Source of the DNA: Methanoregula sp.
GTDB taxonomy: Archaea > Halobacteriota > Methanomicrobia > Methanomicrobiales > Methanospirillaceae
NCBI RefSeq assembly: GCF_003170075.1
Contig: NZ_PMZU01000009.1
Coordinates: forward strand, 1 to 41,144
DNA length: 41,144 bases
Reading direction: 5' to 3'
In this document: positions 15,073 through 33,875 of the stretch, in pieces
How positions within the stretch are numbered: the first letter of the stretch is position 1
Layout: the number at the start of each line of letters is the position of its first letter
Made by a program: the position numbers and the translations under genes
The notes under the pieces: model-generated
What the model was told of the DNA's origin: nothing
Seen by the model: only the letters and a program-made list of their open reading frames with translations
Databases searched by the model: none

Positions 15073-15492
15073 CTACTCCGCCGGTGCAATTCTCCACTTC
15101 CCCGGAGGAATGACTCCCTCGAACCGCGAGCCCACCCCGGGTATCCCGGTCTCTTTTATAGTAATGCCAGTGATGGCAAGAATGTCCCGGACCAAAAGCA
15201 GGCCAAGGCCGGATGACGTTGTGGGACCGGGCGAGGTGGTAAGACCGCGTTCGAAGATCAATTTCTTCTTGTCCTGCGGAATTCCTATCCCGTCGTCCTC
15301 AGAGATAAGCATGCACCCGGTCTTTACAGGTTCGCGGTGTATCCGCGGTATGACGGGCATGTACCCCGGCGAGTTGTCGCAGAGGTTGTACAGCACTTTG
15401 GCAAACATCGGGTCGGCAAAAATGGCAAAACCCGGCGCCGGCCCGGCATCGTGGCGTACCTGGAAAAAACCCTGATAAACACGCGCAGGTAA
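15073..15492 (-). pseudogene. Remnant of a histidine kinase (ATPase domain only)
   Basis: The frame keeps the second half of a histidine kinase. From about 15480 leftwards it reads FAIFADPMFAKVLYNLCDN (N box), then SEDDGIGIPQDKKKLIFERG (G1 and F boxes) and SGLGLLLVRDILAITGI (G2 box), ending PPGKWRIAPAE. This closely follows the end of the intact kinase at 23384-24859. Upstream the frame is closed by a stop at 15493-15495, and no histidine-box, PAS or membrane part is found before the receiver gene at 15536. The usual N-box glycine region is also altered (NSPGYMPV). The missing phosphoacceptor domain and the stop make this a decayed 3' fragment. An alternative is an orphan ATPase protein starting at the ATG at 15408, but that would lose part of the fold. 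Confidence 0.75.
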
Positions 15493-15535: not shown

Positions 15536-15901
15536 TTATGCAAGAAATTGTTGGAGGGTGGTTTTGAGTTCGTCGAAGGTGACCGGTTTCTGGAGAATTC
15601 CCAGTTTCGGGTCATGAAGTTCTGCCATTCTCTCGGCACCAACGGGTGAGGCGGTAAAGAGGATCACGGGGATCTCCCGCTGGTTGTATTCCGTTCGCAG
15701 CCTGTCCAGGAACTCCCAACCTGAAAGGGGCGACATCATGATGTCAAGGAGGATCAGGGCCGGCGGCTCTATTCTGACATAGGTTAGGGCGTCGAGTCCG
15801 TTAGGGATCAGTACAGGATCGTATCCCAGTTTTTTCAGCAGGATATCCATAAGGTCGAGGATAGGCTGATCGTCCTCGACTACCACAATCTTAGGTTTCA
15901 T
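15536..15901 (-). CDS. Response regulator receiver protein
   Basis: A stand-alone CheY-like receiver of 121 residues from the ATG at 15901. The acidic pair EDD follows the first strand. The phosphoacceptor is the aspartate in LILLDIMMSPLSGWEF (residue 53 from this start), the Ser/Thr switch is in VILFTAS, and the conserved lysine is in ILQKPVTFDEL. It has no output domain, so it must act by protein contact or in a phosphorelay. The ATG at 15901 is preferred over the GTG at 15910 because AGGTGATC lies correctly upstream. The start overlaps the end of the sensor kinase gene by 11 bases, which makes that kinase its likely partner. Confidence 0.9.
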   Translation of the reverse strand: MKPKIVVVEDDQPILDLMDILLKKLGYDPVLIPNGLDALTYVRIEPPALILLDIMMSPLSGWEFLDRLRTEYNQREIPVILFTASPVGAERMAELHDPKLGILQKPVTFDELKTTLQQFLA

Positions 15902-17693
15902 GGCGATCACCTTGATCTAGTCGTTTTTTTGGTATATGGATGGTAAACGTACTCCCGATATTCAAGATACTGTCCACGCTGATGTACCCCCCGTGAATCT
16001 GGACATACTTCTTTCCAATTGCAAGCGACAGCCCGGGCTCCCCGGTGCTGTGCCCGAGGGAACCGGCGCTCCCGTCGTTTTCGGGTTTGAAAATCTTATC
16101 GAGCTGGGCCTCGGTGATACCTATCCCGTTGTCCTGTATTGCAAGCCGGTGAAACGGGAGGGCAGACGAGCCCCGGTACGTGATCCAGATCTTCTTTGGC
16201 GGTTTGGAATAGGTCACGCCGTTTGCGACCAGCGCATTGATAACATAGGAGAGTTTCTGGCGGTCGGCCTCAAAGGTGAGGTTAGGTGGGATATCAATTA
16301 CAATCTCTGCCTTGATGGCATACCCCCCGCTCGCGATGACGGCATTGACCATCCCCAGCACGGAAAAAACAGAATAGTCAAGACTGATTACCTCCCCCTC
16401 CACCACCGAGACTTCGAGCATCTGGTTGATAATCTGGCGCTCCTGGTCGACACTTTTTGTGCACCGGTCGAGGATCTGCCGGGTCTCGTCAGTTACTCCG
16501 AAAGAGTGTGGATCATGAAGAAGCAGGTTGAGGTACCCCATGATCGGCTGGAGCGGCGTCCTGAGCTCGTGGGCAACGGCACGCATCATTTCGCGCCGCC
16601 GTTCTTTGGTCTGCTCAACCTGCTCGCGGTATTCTTCCCATTCGGTGTTGTCGATAATGTTGATGAGCCCGGCCGGCTTGTTGTTCCGGGTGATAGGAGT
16701 AAAGTAGAGAACCGCCCGCCGGATCTCACCGCTCTTTGTGGCAAACCGGAACTCCGCCCGGTCCGGTACCGGCGTTGCTGCGTTCCAGCGGCCGGCAAAA
16801 GTCATGAACCTTTCCCTGTCCTGATCAAGAACACTGTCGGCAAGGTCCCTGCCTGTGCATTCGGCCGGTTCGTACCCGGAGAAGGAGGAGAATGCCGGGT
16901 TGGCAAATTGGATTCTCGTGTGTTCTGTGATCACCATGCCGGTGGGAGAGTTCTCGGTCACCTGCCGGTACTGGGTTAAGCTGTCGGCAGCTACCTGCCG
17001 GGCGAGTTTCTCGGCATTGATATCGATGACCGCACAGCTGACCACGGTGTCGTCGATCCGGCTCCAGGAGAGGTTGACCCAGTGAGGCTCCTTTGTTTTT
17101 GTGGCAAAGCAGGTCTCGAAATTCCTGATGTCCTCCCCTGATCCCACGCGCTCAAAGAACTGGCGCTGAAAGTCGCGGGAGAAGAAGAGATCCGAAAAGG
17201 TCATCTGTCCGAGCTCTTCGGTTGTATGTCCGAGCATCTCTGCAACCTGCTGGTTGGCAAGCTGGATCGTAAAACTATTCTTGTCAAAAAGGATGACTCC
17301 CATAAGCGAGTTCTCAAAGATGCTGCGGTAACGGGCTTCTGAGATCCGGATCTTGTTGGTGAAGTACGCGACTGCGAGCGCGACGCAGATAAAGAGGACT
17401 GCTTGGCCGGTGGCCGACAGGAGGGCGAACATGTCCGGAAAGAGCGAGAAGTACACAAGACATTCATACACGATTCCGCACAGGCCGGCGAGAATGATCC
17501 CGCGTCGGGGATAGAAATAGGCCGCATACAGGATAGGGAAGTATAAGAGCTGGGAATAGAGTGTGCCAATATTCCGGGAGAGAGCGATCGCCGTAATCAG
17601 GATGGAGGAGAGCGTAAACGACGCAATAACTGTGAAGCGGACAATATCGGTGTGAGAGAACCGGTGTTCCCTGAGGGTGATCTGCCGCTCCAT
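15891..17693 (-). CDS. Membrane-bound PAS sensor histidine kinase
   Basis: A 600-residue kinase from the ATG at 17693. Residues about 15-115 contain four or five hydrophobic helices (including YFPILYAAYFYPRRGIILAG), the short membrane domain shared with the other sensors of this window. Two PAS domains follow (about 120-230 and 240-350; YRSIFENS and YRQVTENSPTG open them). The HisKA helix carries the phosphoacceptor in AVAHELRTPLQP (His375), and the ATPase domain has AIQDNGIGI (G1) and a somewhat altered G2 (GEPGLSLAIG). It overlaps the receiver gene, forming a two-component pair. A minus-strand TATA box at 17721-17727 predicts a start a few bases before this ATG, against the TTG at 17705. 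The signal sensed is unknown. Confidence 0.92.
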   Translation of the reverse strand: MERQITLREHRFSHTDIVRFTVIASFTLSSILITAIALSRNIGTLYSQLLYFPILYAAYFYPRRGIILAGLCGIVYECLVYFSLFPDMFALLSATGQAVLFICVALAVAYFTNKIRISEARYRSIFENSLMGVILFDKNSFTIQLANQQVAEMLGHTTEELGQMTFSDLFFSRDFQRQFFERVGSGEDIRNFETCFATKTKEPHWVNLSWSRIDDTVVSCAVIDINAEKLARQVAADSLTQYRQVTENSPTGMVITEHTRIQFANPAFSSFSGYEPAECTGRDLADSVLDQDRERFMTFAGRWNAATPVPDRAEFRFATKSGEIRRAVLYFTPITRNNKPAGLINIIDNTEWEEYREQVEQTKERRREMMRAVAHELRTPLQPIMGYLNLLLHDPHSFGVTDETRQILDRCTKSVDQERQIINQMLEVSVVEGEVISLDYSVFSVLGMVNAVIASGGYAIKAEIVIDIPPNLTFEADRQKLSYVINALVANGVTYSKPPKKIWITYRGSSALPFHRLAIQDNGIGITEAQLDKIFKPENDGSAGSLGHSTGEPGLSLAIGKKYVQIHGGYISVDSILNIGSTFTIHIPKKRLDQGDRHET

Positions 17694-17720
17694 TACAAAT
17701 GTCAATTAACGTTGGTAACG

Positions 17721-23383: not shown

Positions 23384-24859
23384 ATGATCATTGACATCTC
23401 TCCGGCAAAAAAGCAGCAGATATACTGGACGGCTACGATTCTCATTGCGATCATCATCACCTTATTATCGACGATCTACTCCCTCTCCCACGGCATATAC
23501 GAAGTTTTCCCGTTCTTCTATATCCTCCCCATAATCTGTGTGGTCTATTTCTACCCGAACCGGGGGGTGCTCTTCTCCCTTGGGATCAGCACGGTGTACA
23601 TCCTGCTCGTTTACTTTTACAGCGGTTTTGGCCCGAATGCCGTGGCGATCTCGACCGCGTGGTTTGTGGTGTTCATTACCATTGGGGTTGTCACTTCCTC
23701 GTTTGCCATGGGACTGCGCGAGGAAGAGCGGAAATACCGGGGTATCTTTGAGAATTCACAGGCCGGTATCTTCACATTCGATCTGGACAGCAAGAAGATC
23801 ACCGAGATCAACAGGAAATGTGCGCAGATGATCAGGTATGAAAGTGAGGAACTGACCGGTGCGGATCTGTCGTGCATCATAGCCGATGCAGAAAACCGTG
23901 ACCGGTTTGTCCGGCAGATTCGGGAAGGCAGGGAGACCGGAGACATTGAATTGCTCTTTACCACCCGCGACAAAACGATACGCCAGTTCCTGGTCTCTGC
24001 ATCGGTAATCCTTGAGAATGTCGTGATCTGCTCTGCGATCGATATTACTTCCCGCAAAATGGCAGAACAGGTGATCGAGAGGGCACGGGACGACCTTGAG
24101 CGCCGGGTGAACGAACGGACCCGGGAACTTCTACACGCAAATGAGGAACTCACGGCCGAGATCGAGGAACGCAAACGTTTCGAGGCAGCGATACATCTGG
24201 CCAACAAGAAACTCAATGTGCTCACCAGTCTCACCAACCACGACATCCTCAATCAGATTACCGCAGTGGTGATGTACCTCGCGCTCATCCGGGAAGCGGA
24301 GACCGACCCGGCCGTCATCGAGTATCTCGGAAAAATCGAGGAAGTCACCCAAATGATCCAGAAGCAGATTCAGTTCACGCGTGATTTCCAGGACATCGGG
24401 GAGACCCGGCCCCGCTGGCACAACATCGGCGCGACGATCACAGGGGAAATTGTCGGGATCGATCTCAAAGATGTGGCGCTTGACCTGTGTGTTGACGATC
24501 TTGAGATCTTTGCAGATGCAGGCCTTCCGAAGGTATTTGCTAACCTGATTAAAAATGCGCTTATCCACGGGGAGCTCGTAACTGTGATCCGGTTCTTTTA
24601 TAATGAAACCGAAAACGATCTCGTACTCTCATGCGAAGACAATGGGGTCGGTATCCCCGAGGGTGCAAAGGAGCGGATATTCCAGCGTGAATATTCCCGC
24701 AATACCGAATATGGGCTGTTTTTGATCGTGGAGATCCTTGGTATTACCGGACTTTCCATCAAGGAGACCGGCACGCAAGGGAGTGGGGCAAGGTTTGACA
24801 TTCATGTCCCCAAAGGAAGTTACCGGTTTGCCCCCAAGACCGAGAGACCGGCCTCCTGA
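23384..24859 (+). CDS. Membrane-bound PAS sensor histidine kinase
   Basis: A 491-residue kinase. Hydrophobic helices cover about residues 13-105 (PFFYILPIICVVYFYP is nearly the same as in the preceding protein). A PAS domain spans about 115-220 (YRGIFENSQAGIFTFD), then a coiled coil (225-275). The phosphoacceptor region is NHDILNQITAV with His286, a variant of the usual HExxxP type. The ATPase domain has NLIKNALIHG (N box), CEDNGVGIPEGAKERIFQRE (G1/F boxes) and a short G2 (EYGLFLIVEILG). It ends with PKGSYRFAP, as in related methanogen kinases. No receiver gene is adjacent, so its partner is unknown. It starts two bases after the kinase-less paralog. Confidence 0.92.
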   Translation: MIIDISPAKKQQIYWTATILIAIIITLLSTIYSLSHGIYEVFPFFYILPIICVVYFYPNRGVLFSLGISTVYILLVYFYSGFGPNAVAISTAWFVVFITIGVVTSSFAMGLREEERKYRGIFENSQAGIFTFDLDSKKITEINRKCAQMIRYESEELTGADLSCIIADAENRDRFVRQIREGRETGDIELLFTTRDKTIRQFLVSASVILENVVICSAIDITSRKMAEQVIERARDDLERRVNERTRELLHANEELTAEIEERKRFEAAIHLANKKLNVLTSLTNHDILNQITAVVMYLALIREAETDPAVIEYLGKIEEVTQMIQKQIQFTRDFQDIGETRPRWHNIGATITGEIVGIDLKDVALDLCVDDLEIFADAGLPKVFANLIKNALIHGELVTVIRFFYNETENDLVLSCEDNGVGIPEGAKERIFQREYSRNTEYGLFLIVEILGITGLSIKETGTQGSGARFDIHVPKGSYRFAPKTERPAS

Positions 24860-27591: not shown

Positions 27592-30057
27592 ATGCCTGCA
27601 CAGGTCATGAGATCCTCAGAAACCCTGACCGTCCCCAGCACCCATGAGGAGTCCGGTGTACTGACCATTGCGATCAACCAGGTGGAGTACAGCAACAGTC
27701 CCGACGGGCCAATTATCCATATCTTCGGGCGGGACACGGGGGGTTCGGCGCACCGGATTGATGTGACCGGCTTTCTGCCGTACTTCTACGTGCCCGAAGA
27801 GCAGATCGGCCAGACGCACCCTCCACAGGTAACGGTCGAGCCCGACACGACATACCGATCGATCCGGGGCGAGAAACTCAAACGGCTGTATACCGTCCGT
27901 CCGGGTGATGTGCGGGAGGTGAGGGAGCGGTACCGGCATTTCGAGGCCGATATCCCCTTTACGACCAGGTTTATGATCGACTGCGGGCTCACCGGGGCCG
28001 TATCAACCGCGGAAACGACCGTGGATTACCACGCACTCGTGCCCACCGAGGTTGACGCGCCGGCCCGGGTCTGCATGATCGATATCGAGTGCGAGGACGA
28101 GCGGGGATTCCCGGATACCCAGCGGGATGCAATCATCTGCATCACCTGCCATGACTCGTTTGACGATGATTACACTACCTTTTTGTTCGGGGGTAAGGCG
28201 ATGCCTGCCGAGATCTCGGAAAAGGAAACAGCCGGCGGTCTGAAGAATGGCTGTTTCCGGAAAGGCACTCATACGATCTGCACGTATGCCAACGAAGTTT
28301 CCATGCTCAAAGCGTTCGCTGCGTATATTGCCGAGCGCGATCCCGATATCCTTTCGGGCTGGAACTTTGTCGAATTCGATATGCCCTATATTACCGGGAG
28401 GATGGAGAAACTTGGTCTCTCGCCGGTCATGCTTGCCCGCCTGCCCGGGATGACCGAGAGAAACGCGCTCCGAGGTCGGGCGCTCTTTGATCTGCTCACC
28501 GGCTACAAGAAGATGCATTCGACCCAGAAGGAATCCTACCGGCTCGATGCGATTGCCCAGGAGGAGGTCGGGGAGAGCAAGGTGAGGTACACCGGCACTG
28601 TCTCTGATCTCTGGAAGAAGGAACCGGCGCTTCTTGTCGAATACAACTACAAAGATGTCGAGCTTTGCGTTGCGATCAACAAAAAGGATAACATCGTCGG
28701 TTTTTACCGGGAGATCGCCCGCTACGTCGGCTGTCCTCTGGATAAGACCCTGAACTCCTCAAGCGTGATCGATGTCTATATCTTAAGAAAGGCACACGGG
28801 AAATACGTCCTGCCCTCAAAAGGCTTTGCAAATGCTGAGGAGTTCGAAGGCGCGACGGTCTTTGAGCCGAGCAGAGGTGTGCGGGAAAACGTGGTGGTGC
28901 TCGACTTAAAATCGCTCTACCCTATGGCGATGATGACGATCAACGCCTCGCCCGAGACAAAAGACCCCGACGGCGAACTTTTGGCCCCGAACGGCATCCG
29001 GTTCAAAAAACAGCCTGATGGGCTGACGCGGAGTATTCTCTCGGAACTTTTAAAGGAGCGGGACGCGAGAAAAAACCTCCGAAATACCTTCCCTTACGGC
29101 TCACCGCAGTACCTTCTCTACGATATGCAGCAGAATGTACTCAAGGTGATCATGAACACCTACTACGGGGTCTCGGGTTATACCCGGTTCCGGCTCTTCG
29201 ACCGGGAGATCGGCGCTGCAGTCACCTCGGTGGGCCGGGCGATCATCGAGCACACCCGGCGCGTCATCGAACAGCAGGGCTATAAGGTGATCTACGGCGA
29301 TACAGATTCCTGCATGGTGCAGATCCCGCCGCTCGACCGGGAAAAAACCATTGAAACTGCACGGATGCTCGAAAAAAAGCTCAACGAGAGTTACTCGGCA
29401 TTTGCCAAACGGGAGCTCAACGCTGACACCCACTACTTCTCGATCAAGTTCGAGAAGATCTATGCACGGTTCTTCCAGGCCGGAAAGAAGAAGCGGTACG
29501 CAGGACGACTTGTCTGGAAGGAAGGAAAAGATGCGGACCAGATCGATATTGTCGGTTTCGAGATCCGGCGCAGCGACACGCCGCAGATCACAAAAACCGT
29601 CCAGTCAAAAGTGATGGAGATGATCCTCGACGGTGCGGAATATGCGGACATCAAGACTTACCTTGGCGGTATCATTACAAAGTACCGGGCCGGGAAGTTC
29701 ACTCTTGACGAGGCCGGCATACCCGGCGGGATCGGCAAATCCCTTAACGATTACGAGACCGATGATGCTCAGGTCAGGGGTGCCCGGTACGCCAACCAGT
29801 ACCTGCACACGGAGTTTGGCAAGGGCAGCAAGCCAAAGCGCGTCTACATAAAAGCCGTGACCGGGAAGTATCCCAAGACCGATGTGCTCTGCTTCGAGTA
29901 TGCGGATCAGGTGCCAAAGGAATTCATCCCCGACTGGGAACTGATGCTTGAAAAGACCATCGAGCAGCCGATCTCCCGGATCATTGAGGCACTCGGCTGG
30001 ACATGGAAGGATGTCGATCCCTCGCACACGACGCTTGCCCAGTGGGGTTTCGGGTAA
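27592..30057 (+). CDS. polB: DNA polymerase family B
   Basis: An 821-residue replicative-type polymerase with proofreading. The exonuclease motifs are MIDIECE (Asp164 and Glu166), GWNFVEFD (about 256-263) and YNYKDVE (351-357). Polymerase motif A is DLKSLYPMAMM (Asp438), motif B is KVIMNTYYGVSGY (from 518) and motif C is YGDTDS (568-573). A KKKRYAGR-type segment follows motif C as usual. The N-terminal region (VEYSNSPDGPIIHIFGRD) matches the archaeal group. No intein is seen at the usual positions in motifs A, B or C. The ATG is three bases after the malate dehydrogenase stop. Confidence 0.97.
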   Translation: MPAQVMRSSETLTVPSTHEESGVLTIAINQVEYSNSPDGPIIHIFGRDTGGSAHRIDVTGFLPYFYVPEEQIGQTHPPQVTVEPDTTYRSIRGEKLKRLYTVRPGDVREVRERYRHFEADIPFTTRFMIDCGLTGAVSTAETTVDYHALVPTEVDAPARVCMIDIECEDERGFPDTQRDAIICITCHDSFDDDYTTFLFGGKAMPAEISEKETAGGLKNGCFRKGTHTICTYANEVSMLKAFAAYIAERDPDILSGWNFVEFDMPYITGRMEKLGLSPVMLARLPGMTERNALRGRALFDLLTGYKKMHSTQKESYRLDAIAQEEVGESKVRYTGTVSDLWKKEPALLVEYNYKDVELCVAINKKDNIVGFYREIARYVGCPLDKTLNSSSVIDVYILRKAHGKYVLPSKGFANAEEFEGATVFEPSRGVRENVVVLDLKSLYPMAMMTINASPETKDPDGELLAPNGIRFKKQPDGLTRSILSELLKERDARKNLRNTFPYGSPQYLLYDMQQNVLKVIMNTYYGVSGYTRFRLFDREIGAAVTSVGRAIIEHTRRVIEQQGYKVIYGDTDSCMVQIPPLDREKTIETARMLEKKLNESYSAFAKRELNADTHYFSIKFEKIYARFFQAGKKKRYAGRLVWKEGKDADQIDIVGFEIRRSDTPQITKTVQSKVMEMILDGAEYADIKTYLGGIITKYRAGKFTLDEAGIPGGIGKSLNDYETDDAQVRGARYANQYLHTEFGKGSKPKRVYIKAVTGKYPKTDVLCFEYADQVPKEFIPDWELMLEKTIEQPISRIIEALGWTWKDVDPSHTTLAQWGFG

Positions 30058-30354: not shown

Positions 30355-31701
30355 ATGACAGGATCTATATCTCCCATTGGGGAACGCGAAGAAAGTTTTG
30401 TGGATTCCTGGTTTTTTATTATCGTCACCACAACTATCCTTGCGCTCCTCGTAAACATCCTTGCGCTCCATTACGGTACCTCGGCTGTCGCTACAAACCT
30501 TCTCTATATACCAATCGTGATCGCGGCGTACTGGTATCCCCGCTGGGGAGTCTGGTATGCCGCCGTGGTTGCTGTCTTCTACATTGGGATAATCGCTGTT
30601 ATCACGGGCGGATCTCTGGGAGAACTTGCTGCCGCGTTTATCACCTGCCTTGTCGTGATAGGTGTTGCCGCCGTGGTCGCACGCCTTGCCATCCATATGC
30701 GCAGGAACGAAGTGAAATACCGGGGCATCTTTAACCACTCTGAAGCCGGGATAGGCGTCGTGAACAGTTCCGATCACATGATAAAGGAAGTAAACCGGCG
30801 GTTCGCGGACACACTTGGTTATGATCCTGCAGAGATTGTAGCCATACCCTTCACCCGGATCTGGTCCGACCCGGTCGACCGGGATAGTTTTTTCCAGATT
30901 CTTTCCGATCAGGGAAATGTAGAAAATCTTGAGACCCGGTTTATGACAAAGATCGGGACATCCCGGTGGGTTCTGCTCTCTGCCGGTATGCTCCCGGACA
31001 ACCAGTTTGTCTGTACCATTGTGGATATCACAGCCAGAAAGCAGGCAGAGGAGGCGCTCATCATAAAAGATCATGCGATCAGTTCCTCTATCAATGCGAT
31101 TGCCATCATGGACCTTGACTTTGCGATCTCCTACGTGAATCACTCACTTTTAACAATGATGAAATACAACGACGCACAGGAATTCTTTCATAAAATTCTG
31201 TGGGAATATGTTGCGTCCAAAGATGGGATTGACACGATAAAGGATGAACTCCACAGGAAAGGAAGCTTTTTTGGGGAGATCCTCCTTTATAAAGCCAACC
31301 AGACACCGTTTTTTGTCCTGCTCTGGATCAACCTCGTGAAAAATGAAAAAGACAATCCCGTCTGCATCATGGCCTCATTTATTGATATTACTGACAGGAA
31401 GCAGATGGAGGCGGTAAAGAGATCGGCACTCGAACAGATCGAAAAAAATATCGAGCAGTTTGCCATCCTCGGAGACCATATCAGGAATCCTCTTGCCGTG
31501 ATCGTGGGGCTTTCGAGCCTTGCCCCTGGGGATATCACCGATAAGATTATCCTTCAGGCCCGGGAGATCGACCGGATTGTTACCCAACTTGATCAGGGAT
31601 GGATCGAATCAGAGAAAGTGCGGGAGTTTATCAAGCGTTACTACATGGTCGGTGTCCCGGACAATGGTGAGATCGGGGTTGCCAAGGATATGGCCAAATA
31701 G
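30355..31701 (+). CDS. Membrane PAS protein with a DHIRNPL motif and no ATPase domain
   Basis: A 448-residue sensor-like protein. Hydrophobic segments at about 18-110 form the same kind of membrane domain as in the other sensors. Two PAS domains follow (about 120-230 and 235-350; YRGIFNHSEAGIGVV opens the first). Then comes a helical stretch EQFAILGDHIRNPLAVIVGL, with His375 placed as in a phosphoacceptor helix, a second helix (REIDRIVTQLDQGWIESEKVREFI), and the end. No N, G1 or G2 box is present, so it cannot bind ATP in the normal way. The same ending occurs in other methanogen PAS proteins from general knowledge. It stands alone with a leader of nearly 300 bases after polB; the leader holds an AT-rich box (about 30243-30254) and a hairpin at 30306-30331. 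Confidence 0.85.
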   Translation: MTGSISPIGEREESFVDSWFFIIVTTTILALLVNILALHYGTSAVATNLLYIPIVIAAYWYPRWGVWYAAVVAVFYIGIIAVITGGSLGELAAAFITCLVVIGVAAVVARLAIHMRRNEVKYRGIFNHSEAGIGVVNSSDHMIKEVNRRFADTLGYDPAEIVAIPFTRIWSDPVDRDSFFQILSDQGNVENLETRFMTKIGTSRWVLLSAGMLPDNQFVCTIVDITARKQAEEALIIKDHAISSSINAIAIMDLDFAISYVNHSLLTMMKYNDAQEFFHKILWEYVASKDGIDTIKDELHRKGSFFGEILLYKANQTPFFVLLWINLVKNEKDNPVCIMASFIDITDRKQMEAVKRSALEQIEKNIEQFAILGDHIRNPLAVIVGLSSLAPGDITDKIILQAREIDRIVTQLDQGWIESEKVREFIKRYYMVGVPDNGEIGVAKDMAK

Positions 31702-31928
31702 CCGGGTTATCTTTTTTAAAAACAGATCTTTCTATACATCATGGGACACTCTTCCGGTATCAGGCTTTCAGGCACACTGCCCAGAATCTTCGGAGACTGA
31801 TGCAATGGCCCCTCATATGAAGTGCGATCCTGCAAGCAGTTTTTATGTGATGGTATCGTGGGTGTCTGTGAGATAAATCCGTCGATCTGGTGATTTTTGG
31901 GACGTTACGATGAATTCCTTAATCGTGC

Positions 31929-33875
31929 TCAAGGGTGTGTCCCCCCGTGTTTAAGCCGCTCATTGAGTTTTTTTACTTGTTCGCGGAGCGCGATCGCCCG
32001 CTCGAAGTCAAGGTTGTCTGCCGCATCCCGCATCTGTTTTTCGAGTTCGATGACAACGTTTGGGATCTCAGCCTTGGGAACATATTTTGTATTCTTGATC
32101 TCGACCTCTTTCTCTTTTACCGGCTTTATGATCGTCTGCGGGATGATGTGGTGTTTTTCGTTGTACGCGATCTGCATCTCGCGCCGGCGCTTTGTCTCGG
32201 AGATCGCGGTCTTCATCGAATCGGTCATTGAGTCTGCATAGAGTACGACTTTCGCGTTCACATTCCGTGCGGCCCGGCCAATGATCTGGATCAGGCTTCG
32301 TGCGTCCCGGAGGAACCCTTCCTTGTCCGCGTCGAGGATGCCGATGAACCCAACCTCCGGGATGTCGAGACCCTCCCGCAAAAGGTTGATCCCGACCAGC
32401 ACGTCAAATTTGCCCAGCCTGAGCTCCCGTATGATCTCGGTGCGTTCGAGCGTCTGGATCTCCGAGTGGAGATACCGGGTGCGGATGCCCCGGTCGGCAA
32501 GGTACTCGGAGAGTTCTTCGGCAAGTTTTTTGGTAAGCGTGGTCACGAGCACCCGGTCGCCGCGTGCGATGGTCTTTTTTGTTTCAGTTATCACGTCGAG
32601 CGTCTGTCCCTCGATTGGCCGGACTTCGATTGCCGGGTCGACAAGGCCGGTCGGCCGGATGATCTGCTCTACGAGCTGCGTGGAGTGCTTTAATTCGTAG
32701 GGTCCGGGTGTCGCCGAGACAAAGATTACCTGACGCATGTACTGCTCGAACTCGTGGAATTTCAGGGGACGGTTGTCGAGCGCGGAGGGAAGCCGGAACC
32801 CGTAATTCACCAGCGTCTCCTTCCGCGACCGGTCACCGTTGTACATCCCGTGCAGCTGCGGGATCGTCTGGTGGCTCTCATCAATGATAATCAGGAGATC
32901 TTCCGGGAAATAATCGAGCAGGCAGTACGGCTTCTCACCGGCTTTCCTCCCGTCGAAATGTCGTGAATAGTTCTCAATCCCCTTACAGGAGCCGGTTTCC
33001 TGGATCATTTCGAGGTCAAAGTTTGTCCGTTGCCGGAGCCGGTGCGACTCGATGAGTCCCAGCGTGGGGAGCACCTCTTCGAGTTCCTCCCGGATGGATA
33101 CGATTGCGGCTTTCTGCGCACTCTCCGGGGTGACAAAGTGGCGTGCAGGGTAGACATAGAAATACTTCATCTCCTCTTTTTTTGCCCCGGTATTCTTGTC
33201 AACCTCCCGGATACGTTCGATCTCGTCGCCGAAGAGTTCGATCCGGATAATATCGTTATAGTACCCCGGCACGATATCGATGGTGTCACCCTTGACCCGG
33301 AACCGGCCCGGGGAGAGATCGATGTCGTTTCGCTCGAACTGGATGTCCAGGAGCCGGCTCATGATCTCGTTTCGGGTGATCTTCTGGCCGACCGACATGT
33401 CGAAGCCGAGGTTCCGGAAGTTTTCCGGGTTCCCGAGGCCGAAGATGCAGGAGACCGATGCGACCACGATCACGTCGCGCCGGCACGAGAGCGAAGCGGT
33501 GGCGGAGAGCCGGAGCATCTCGATTTTGGGATTGATTGCGGAGTCCTTCTCGATATACTGGTCTTTTGCCGGGATGTAGGATTCGGGTTGGTAGTAATCG
33601 TAATACGAGACAAAGTACTCGACCCGGTTTTTCGGGAAAAAGTCACAGAACTCCTGGTAGAGTTGTGCGGCAAGCGTCTTGTTATGGGCGATGACAAGGG
33701 TTGGCTTGTTTGCCGCCGCAATCACGTTTGCCATTGTGAATGTCTTGCCGGAGCCGGTAACGCCAAGGAGCGTCTGGCACCGGGTGTTGTCCGCCAGTCC
33801 GTCATTGAGTTTTGCTATCGCCTCCGGTTGCGATCCGGCCGGGGGAAAGGTGGAGACGAGCTGGAATTCTGTCAC
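31929..33875 (-). CDS. uvrB: Excinuclease ABC subunit B
   Basis: A 648-residue UvrB, the helicase-like subunit that verifies DNA damage and recruits UvrC in nucleotide excision repair. Walker A is GVTGSGKT (38-45), the beta-hairpin that probes the damage is in [16 protein letters not shown], and DEAH-like [46 protein letters not shown] and IGRAARN complete the helicase motifs. The C-terminal UVR segment ([27 protein letters not shown]) binds UvrC. The start is a GTG. uvrA and uvrC are not in the window. This bacterial system is found in many methanogens, and here it coexists with an XPD-like helicase. Confidence 0.96.

Follow-up and report, generated by a model that had tools for sequence, protein, structure and literature searches.

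A Methanoregula PAS sensor ends in a HisKA-like module with aspartate at the position of the phospho-accepting histidine

Sensors with a HisKA domain and no HATPase domain have been described from Archaeoglobi and Methanomicrobia as 'nonenzymatic HK-like proteins' (Galperin et al. 2018; PMC5847659). By that account the class has a conserved histidine, phosphoacceptor or phosphatase roles are proposed for it, and most of its members are said (section 7) to be misannotated as histidine kinases. Thus, the kind of protein treated here, with HisKA and without HATPase, is already known. As the class is described there, our family shares with it the PAS/GAF sensors, the C-terminal HisKA-like domain, the missing HATPase, the lineages and the suggestion of a phosphatase. 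It differs in that the paper gives the class a conserved histidine (the column is not named), whereas the modules of our family have aspartate at the acceptor position and a histidine that is not conserved. The Asp-for-His exchange, the unconserved histidine and the family signature are what is new beyond that account. Among the papers listed by full-text literature searches, with subscription papers and preprints mostly outside their range, none reports in its title or the beginning of its abstract an aspartate at the acceptor position of this module family.

The module can also be compared with HisKA sensor kinases (CrdS, HK853, EnvZ), with which it shares homology of the helix hairpin, the R-N/T-P motif and a Thr or Asn at +4. 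Unlike these kinases, the sensor lacks the acceptor histidine, the acid at +1 and the ATPase, and it adds a conserved LDxGWxESEKVRxF end. Kinase and phosphatase residues have been separated in CrdS by Willett and Kirby (PMC3510030), who report that the acid after the histidine serves the kinase reaction only and N375, at +4, the phosphatase reaction only. According to the same study, the H371A variant of CrdS still dephosphorylates its partner, with a half-life of 2.6 min compared with 53.5 for the partner alone and 0.7 with the wild type.

The window analysed here is a stretch of 41,144 nucleotides from Methanoregula sp. One of its open reading frames encodes a genuine sensor of 448 amino acids, in which membrane segments, two PAS domains and a two-helix module of about 80 residues are followed by the stop codon (Table 1). 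The features that the initial annotation had read from the letters, namely GDHIRNPLAVIVGL at residues 373-386 with its histidine 375, and WIESEKVREF towards the C-terminus, are all present in the frame, and the second helix proposed there is also predicted. An AlphaFold2 model of the PAS and module region (mean pLDDT 84.7) has a PAS domain and then two long helices, at residues 346-389 and 395-430. The second PAS domain of the model matches LOV/PAS structures, and the best Foldseek matches of the whole model are LOV-histidine kinase chimeras, which cover most of its length (residues 5-203 in 8a7f and 4-199 in 8a3u, with an rmsd near 11 Å).

Table 1. Features of the sensor gene, in positions of the window
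Feature	Coordinates	Strand	Basis
Sensor protein gene	30355..31701	+	ORF, 448 aa, stop included
N-terminal hydrophobic region, aa 14-116, several likely membrane-spanning segments	30394..30702	+	hydropathy scan only
First PAS domain, aa ~117-235	30703..31059	+	TIGR00229 and PAS_9 above cut-off
Second PAS domain, aa ~236-348	31060..31398	+	second PAS stretch; PAS fold in model
C-terminal pseudo-DHp (HisKA-like) module, aa 351-430, two-helix hairpin	31405..31644	+	sequence and model helices
Asp374, aligned on the phospho-acceptor His position of HisKA kinases; D in 102/104	31474..31476	+	alignments
His375, aligned on the acidic position after the phospho-His; H in 41/104	31477..31479	+	alignments, conservation
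Asn378, aligned on the Thr/Asn position, phosphatase-specific in the HisKA kinase CrdS as given in PMC3510030	31486..31488	+	alignments
Conserved end of helix 2, LDQGWIESEKVREFI, aa 412-426	31588..31632	+	conservation, 104 modules

The sensor gene lies between a B-family DNA polymerase gene (polB, 27592-30057, +; score below its model cut-offs) and a convergent uvrB (31929-33875, -), which is followed by type III RuBisCO. Among 15 relatives' loci chosen for comparison, uvrB lies downstream of the sensor in all 15 and a polB homolog upstream in 14, the exception being L087; in several of them the gap between polymerase and sensor reaches about 3.5 kb. In L079 the sensor gene is divided between two frames, and in L094 and L095 it is shorter, with one PAS domain fewer. 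The closest named record among the best 80 of 161 loci is Methanoregula sp. L078, with 95% identity over the module. Three sensors of the window, at 15891-17705 (-), 23384-24859 (+) and 30355-31701 (+), have a common membrane-PAS input region and different outputs. The output of the first is a HELRTPL kinase, that of the second an HDILNQ kinase and that of the third the ATPase-free module of the Asp type. Just downstream of the first kinase and a receiver gene (15536-15910) lies an ORF of 111 amino acids with HATPase_c alone (15073-15408, -; 38.6 bits), which represents either the decayed end of a kinase or an ATPase that stands alone.

Modules were collected in several sets. Across all loci, 245 profile matches gave 204 distinct modules, of which 192 passed the filter. 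Fourteen genomes were searched whole with an alignment bearing His in 8 of its 9 rows, and the 108 places fetched left 104 distinct modules past a score and length filter. Whole proteins (ORFs closed at both ends, at most 1300 aa) were scanned with Pfam in 84 of 86 cases, omitting one pseudogene fragment and one weak match. A further set, the best 80 of 161 loci, was found by a pair of peptide patterns, one of them spelling GD[HN], and was ranked by likeness to a His-bearing query. Since these patterns and this ranking inflate His375, all conservation figures below are taken from the 14-genome set.

Downstream of the module, no HATPase_c was found by domain scan in the sensor protein (30355-31701). 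Its stop codon (31699-31701) lies 227 bp from the end of uvrB, and the plus-strand frames that run past it (31520-31876, 31897-32241 and 31935-32231) gave no ATPase match in Pfam. The protein thus lacks an ATPase domain, as had been noted from the sequence, and a domain hidden behind a frameshift beyond 31701, which had been named as one of two outcomes that would refute the earlier reading, is rejected on these grounds. Close relatives end in the same way: in 12 of the 12 ORFs listed (L001-L012, L001 being the sensor gene itself) the stop falls 18-28 residues past the module. In 201 ORFs with a closed 3' end, the tail after the module has a median of 9 residues and a 90th percentile of 32; in the 14-genome set the median is 8 residues in 102 closed ORFs, four of which have a tail of more than 100 residues. 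Pfam found HATPase_c in 2 of the 84 whole proteins, and a home-made profile found it in 4 of 192 module ORFs, never directly behind the module (once before it and three times more than 500 residues after it).

Longer proteins also occur. In genome G154 (L205, L216, L218 and L219) the module stands in the middle of proteins of 1000-1800 residues, with further sensor-like stretches after it, two of the proteins being cut at the end of the stretch. A distant C-terminal HATPase_c lies behind the module in L205, in L218 and in one of the two L216 proteins, and all five G154 modules listed have Gly in the column of His375. Six relatives (L063, L126, L122, L128, L140 and L030) carry a tail of about 160 residues behind the module, and the two tails that were scanned, those of L063 and L126, match Pfam RyR (70.1 and 69.2 bits), an unusual fusion of sensor to RyR in methanogens.

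By sequence comparison, the C-terminal module is homologous to HisKA. The Pfam HisKA model is matched by all 56 modules of one set (A5, without one module cut by a contig end) at E<=0.1, with a best value of 2.1e-10, and by 49 of the 84 whole proteins at E<=0.001. The sensor itself scores 21.9 bits as a whole protein and 25.5 bits as module alone, below the cut-off of 26.9, and HHalign of the family profile against eight true HisKA domains gives a probability of 94.4%. Within the order, 148 of 199 genomes carry the module, in up to 22 copies each. It is also present in 109 of 392 genomes of a phylum sample, where copy counts per genome are to be read as at least the number found. The search covered the phylum, with a peptide-pattern scan beyond it. 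All but three of the 109 genomes belong to the six families of the order or to family f9, which contains Archaeoglobus; a locus of Archaeoglobus sp. JdFR-27 (L150) is among the module matches. The input domains of the 84 whole proteins vary (PAS, GAF, CHASE4, SBP_bac_3, HAMP, PocR and MEDS in Pfam). The sensor's own genome carries the module once, together with nine receivers and 12 matches to HATPase_c, of which not all are kinases.

The alignments place Asp374, and not His375, on the phospho-accepting histidine. When the family profile was searched against PDB chains with hmmsearch, the aspartate fell over the histidine of 4jas (SHELRTPL), bacteriophytochromes, 8u4x and EnvZ, the acceptor motifs paired with it being those of SHELRTPL, GHDLRNPL, SHDLRNPM and SHDLRTPL kinases; these matches are weak (E 0.02-0.2) and so indicate the register, not homology. 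HHalign to the eight true HisKA domains gives the same register, and BLASTP against the window kinase at 15891 aligns ILGDHIRNPL to AVAHELRTPL without a gap. In an ungapped register scan, Asp374 on the histidine scores 22.1 and the next register -12.1. After removal of the His, +1, +3, +4 and +5 columns the scores are 10.7 and 0.2, and the register with His375 on the histidine is outside the best five. The module thus reads D-H where kinases read H-D/E; the second window kinase (23384-24859) has NHDILNQ. Searches with the hairpin alone gave no Foldseek match at E<=0.001, although the top rows include several LOV-histidine kinase chimeras (E 0.2-0.7). VIA-align listed generic helical pairs (Z 9-10), so that the register rests on sequence. 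On that basis we place Asp374 at the phospho-His position and His375 at the neighbouring Glu/Asp position. The likeness to a histidine kinase helix proposed in the initial annotation therefore stands for the module as a whole and not for its histidine, which is off the acceptor position now taken by Asp374.

Conservation follows the same division. Asp374 is D in 102 of the 104 modules (entropy rank 3 of 80 columns), Arg377 is R in 101 and Pro379 is P in 103 (rank 1). The column of Asn378 (rank 15) is Asn in 89 modules, Gln and His in 7 each and Gly in one, which bears out the earlier remark that the Asn and Pro after the histidine resemble an H-box. An aspartate with N or Q four residues on occurs in 95 of the 104 modules. 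Conservation in the module is also among the strongest where helix 2 ends (LDxGWxESEKVRxF; D413 in 102 and S419 in 101 of 104), and we know of no kinase counterpart for this stretch.

His375 behaves differently. Its column holds H in 41 modules, Q in 20, E in 18, G in 9, S, N and K in 4 each, R in 3 and D in one, and ranks 52 of 80. An acid thus stands at the position after the acceptor in 19 of 104 modules, where the window sensor has His. No module of the 104, nor any of the 192-module set, has His at the acceptor position itself. One suggestion of the initial annotation was a phosphotransfer module, with His375 receiving phosphate from a separate kinase, and a lack of conservation of this histidine, as now observed, had been named there as a refuting outcome. 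The histidine is present in the window sensor and in 16 of the 17 other close relatives among those listed, and section 7 of PMC5847659 gives such proteins a conserved, possibly phosphate-accepting histidine. Against this, none of our alignments puts it on the acceptor position, its column is H in 41 of 104 modules only, and Asn replaces it in L012 (the contig of L091), a relative that also lies between polB and uvrB. On register and conservation we reject His375 as phospho-acceptor, and a module of the phosphotransfer kind, with Asp374 at the acceptor site, a variable His375 and an acceptor histidine in none of the 104 modules, is very improbable.

Another reading is that the module is a structural end only, which would tie PAS dimers together and leave the output to other components such as partner proteins. 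Such a role would suit its occurrence mid-protein, between PAS domains or before a RyR domain. It does not suit the C-terminal position in most proteins (the short tails of the 201 ORFs given above), nor most conserved residues that include polar ones of the H-box (Asp374 and Arg377) besides those of the core, and we consider it improbable.

A look for co-occurring receivers was among the checks named in the initial annotation. At the level of genomes, none of the 109 module-bearing genomes is among the 28 receiver-less genomes of the phylum sample of 392 (20 listed as receiver-less and 8 absent from the list, compared by eye). Because of shared ancestry this co-occurrence is weak evidence, and it is also confounded by reduced genomes. 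At the level of loci, neighbouring receivers are the exception: a receiver gene lies within 3 kb at 18 of 103 loci and an HATPase gene at 25 (home-made profiles, no chance level), and no constant receiver neighbour was found among these 103 loci of relatives with the home-made receiver profile. Both profiles were made from the sensor's genome, and the ATPase profile includes a gyrase-like sequence. A receiver adjoining the sensor gene was also rejected, the window's receiver (15536-15910) being about 14 kb off. In some proteins a receiver is part of the same chain (15 of the 84 whole proteins by Pfam; 19 of 192 module ORFs by the home-made profile).

Such fusions would suit the phosphatase reading given below, and also a pseudo-kinase that docks or sequesters, binding response regulators or pairing with the bundles of true kinases and altering their activity with no chemistry of its own. 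The shared HisKA register and the conserved motif are consistent with this, and His or Gln in place of Asn378 in 14 of 104 modules fits binding better than catalysis. The strict D-x-x-R-N-P at positions that are catalytic in kinases would, in turn, exceed what a binding surface usually needs. We regard plain docking as rather unlikely, and as the main rival of the mechanism that we prefer, a signal-gated response-regulator phosphatase.

CheZ, CheX and the HisKA_3 phosphatases are of folds or families different from the HisKA-like module, and the likeness between them and the module is one of motif only. As PMC3510030 describes them, these phosphatases (NarX for HisKA_3) carry an acid and an amide in one helix, and the D-x-x-x-N/Q of the module resembles their DxxxQ. 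Judged from its residues, the module of the sensor is a pseudo-DHp output, and neither a kinase nor a His phosphotransfer domain of the usual sort. With no ATPase and with Asp for the acceptor histidine, it would probably act on partner regulators by binding them, and perhaps by removing their phosphate, not by phosphorylating them. Among the options that had been offered for this protein, a non-phosphorylated signalling output is the best fit to the evidence.

We propose that a signal at the membrane and PAS part would alter the dimeric helix bundle, which would then dock response regulators on the same face as in kinases and, most likely, promote the loss of their phosphate. Asp374 and Asn378 would both point at the receiver: Asn378 may position a water molecule and Asp374 may contact the active site of the receiver, as in the D-x-x-x-Q motif of CheZ and HisKA_3. 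The putative phosphatase would oppose the cell's true kinases. The amide at +4 is kept, two kinase residues and the ATPase are lost and the spacing is DxxxQ-like, which makes a signal-gated phosphatase the most economical reading. Several observations count against it. The Asn position is Gln in 7 and His in 7 of the 104 modules, and in PMC3510030 the N375Q variant of CrdS is reported to lose phosphatase activity and the H610A variant of PleC both phosphatase and kinase activity. The catalytic histidine of HisKA kinases is also thought to help activate water, according to PMC7005713, and the module has Asp there. The small share of loci with a receiver gene nearby and the lack of a significant structural match for the hairpin alone, both given above, also count against it. 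Weighing both sides, we give about even chances to the full description of the protein as a membrane-anchored PAS sensor with a kinase-dead, HisKA-derived DHp output that most likely promotes phosphate loss from response regulators.

If the acceptor site is an aspartate, the module proteins would be excluded from the usual His-Asp phosphorelay route, and the role given to their histidine needs correcting. With a prediction at the level of residues (Asp374 and Asn378), the older suggestion of a phosphatase can be tested directly in a large family of signalling proteins. More tentatively, Methanomicrobiales and Archaeoglobaceae may have converted the dimerization domain of kinases to a response-regulator phosphatase that stands alone, is gated by a signal and has an Asp-x-x-x-Asn site convergent with CheZ. 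It would be used as a general output of many sensors, up to about 20 per genome. If this is true, sensing in these archaea would often be wired as the controlled removal of phosphate.
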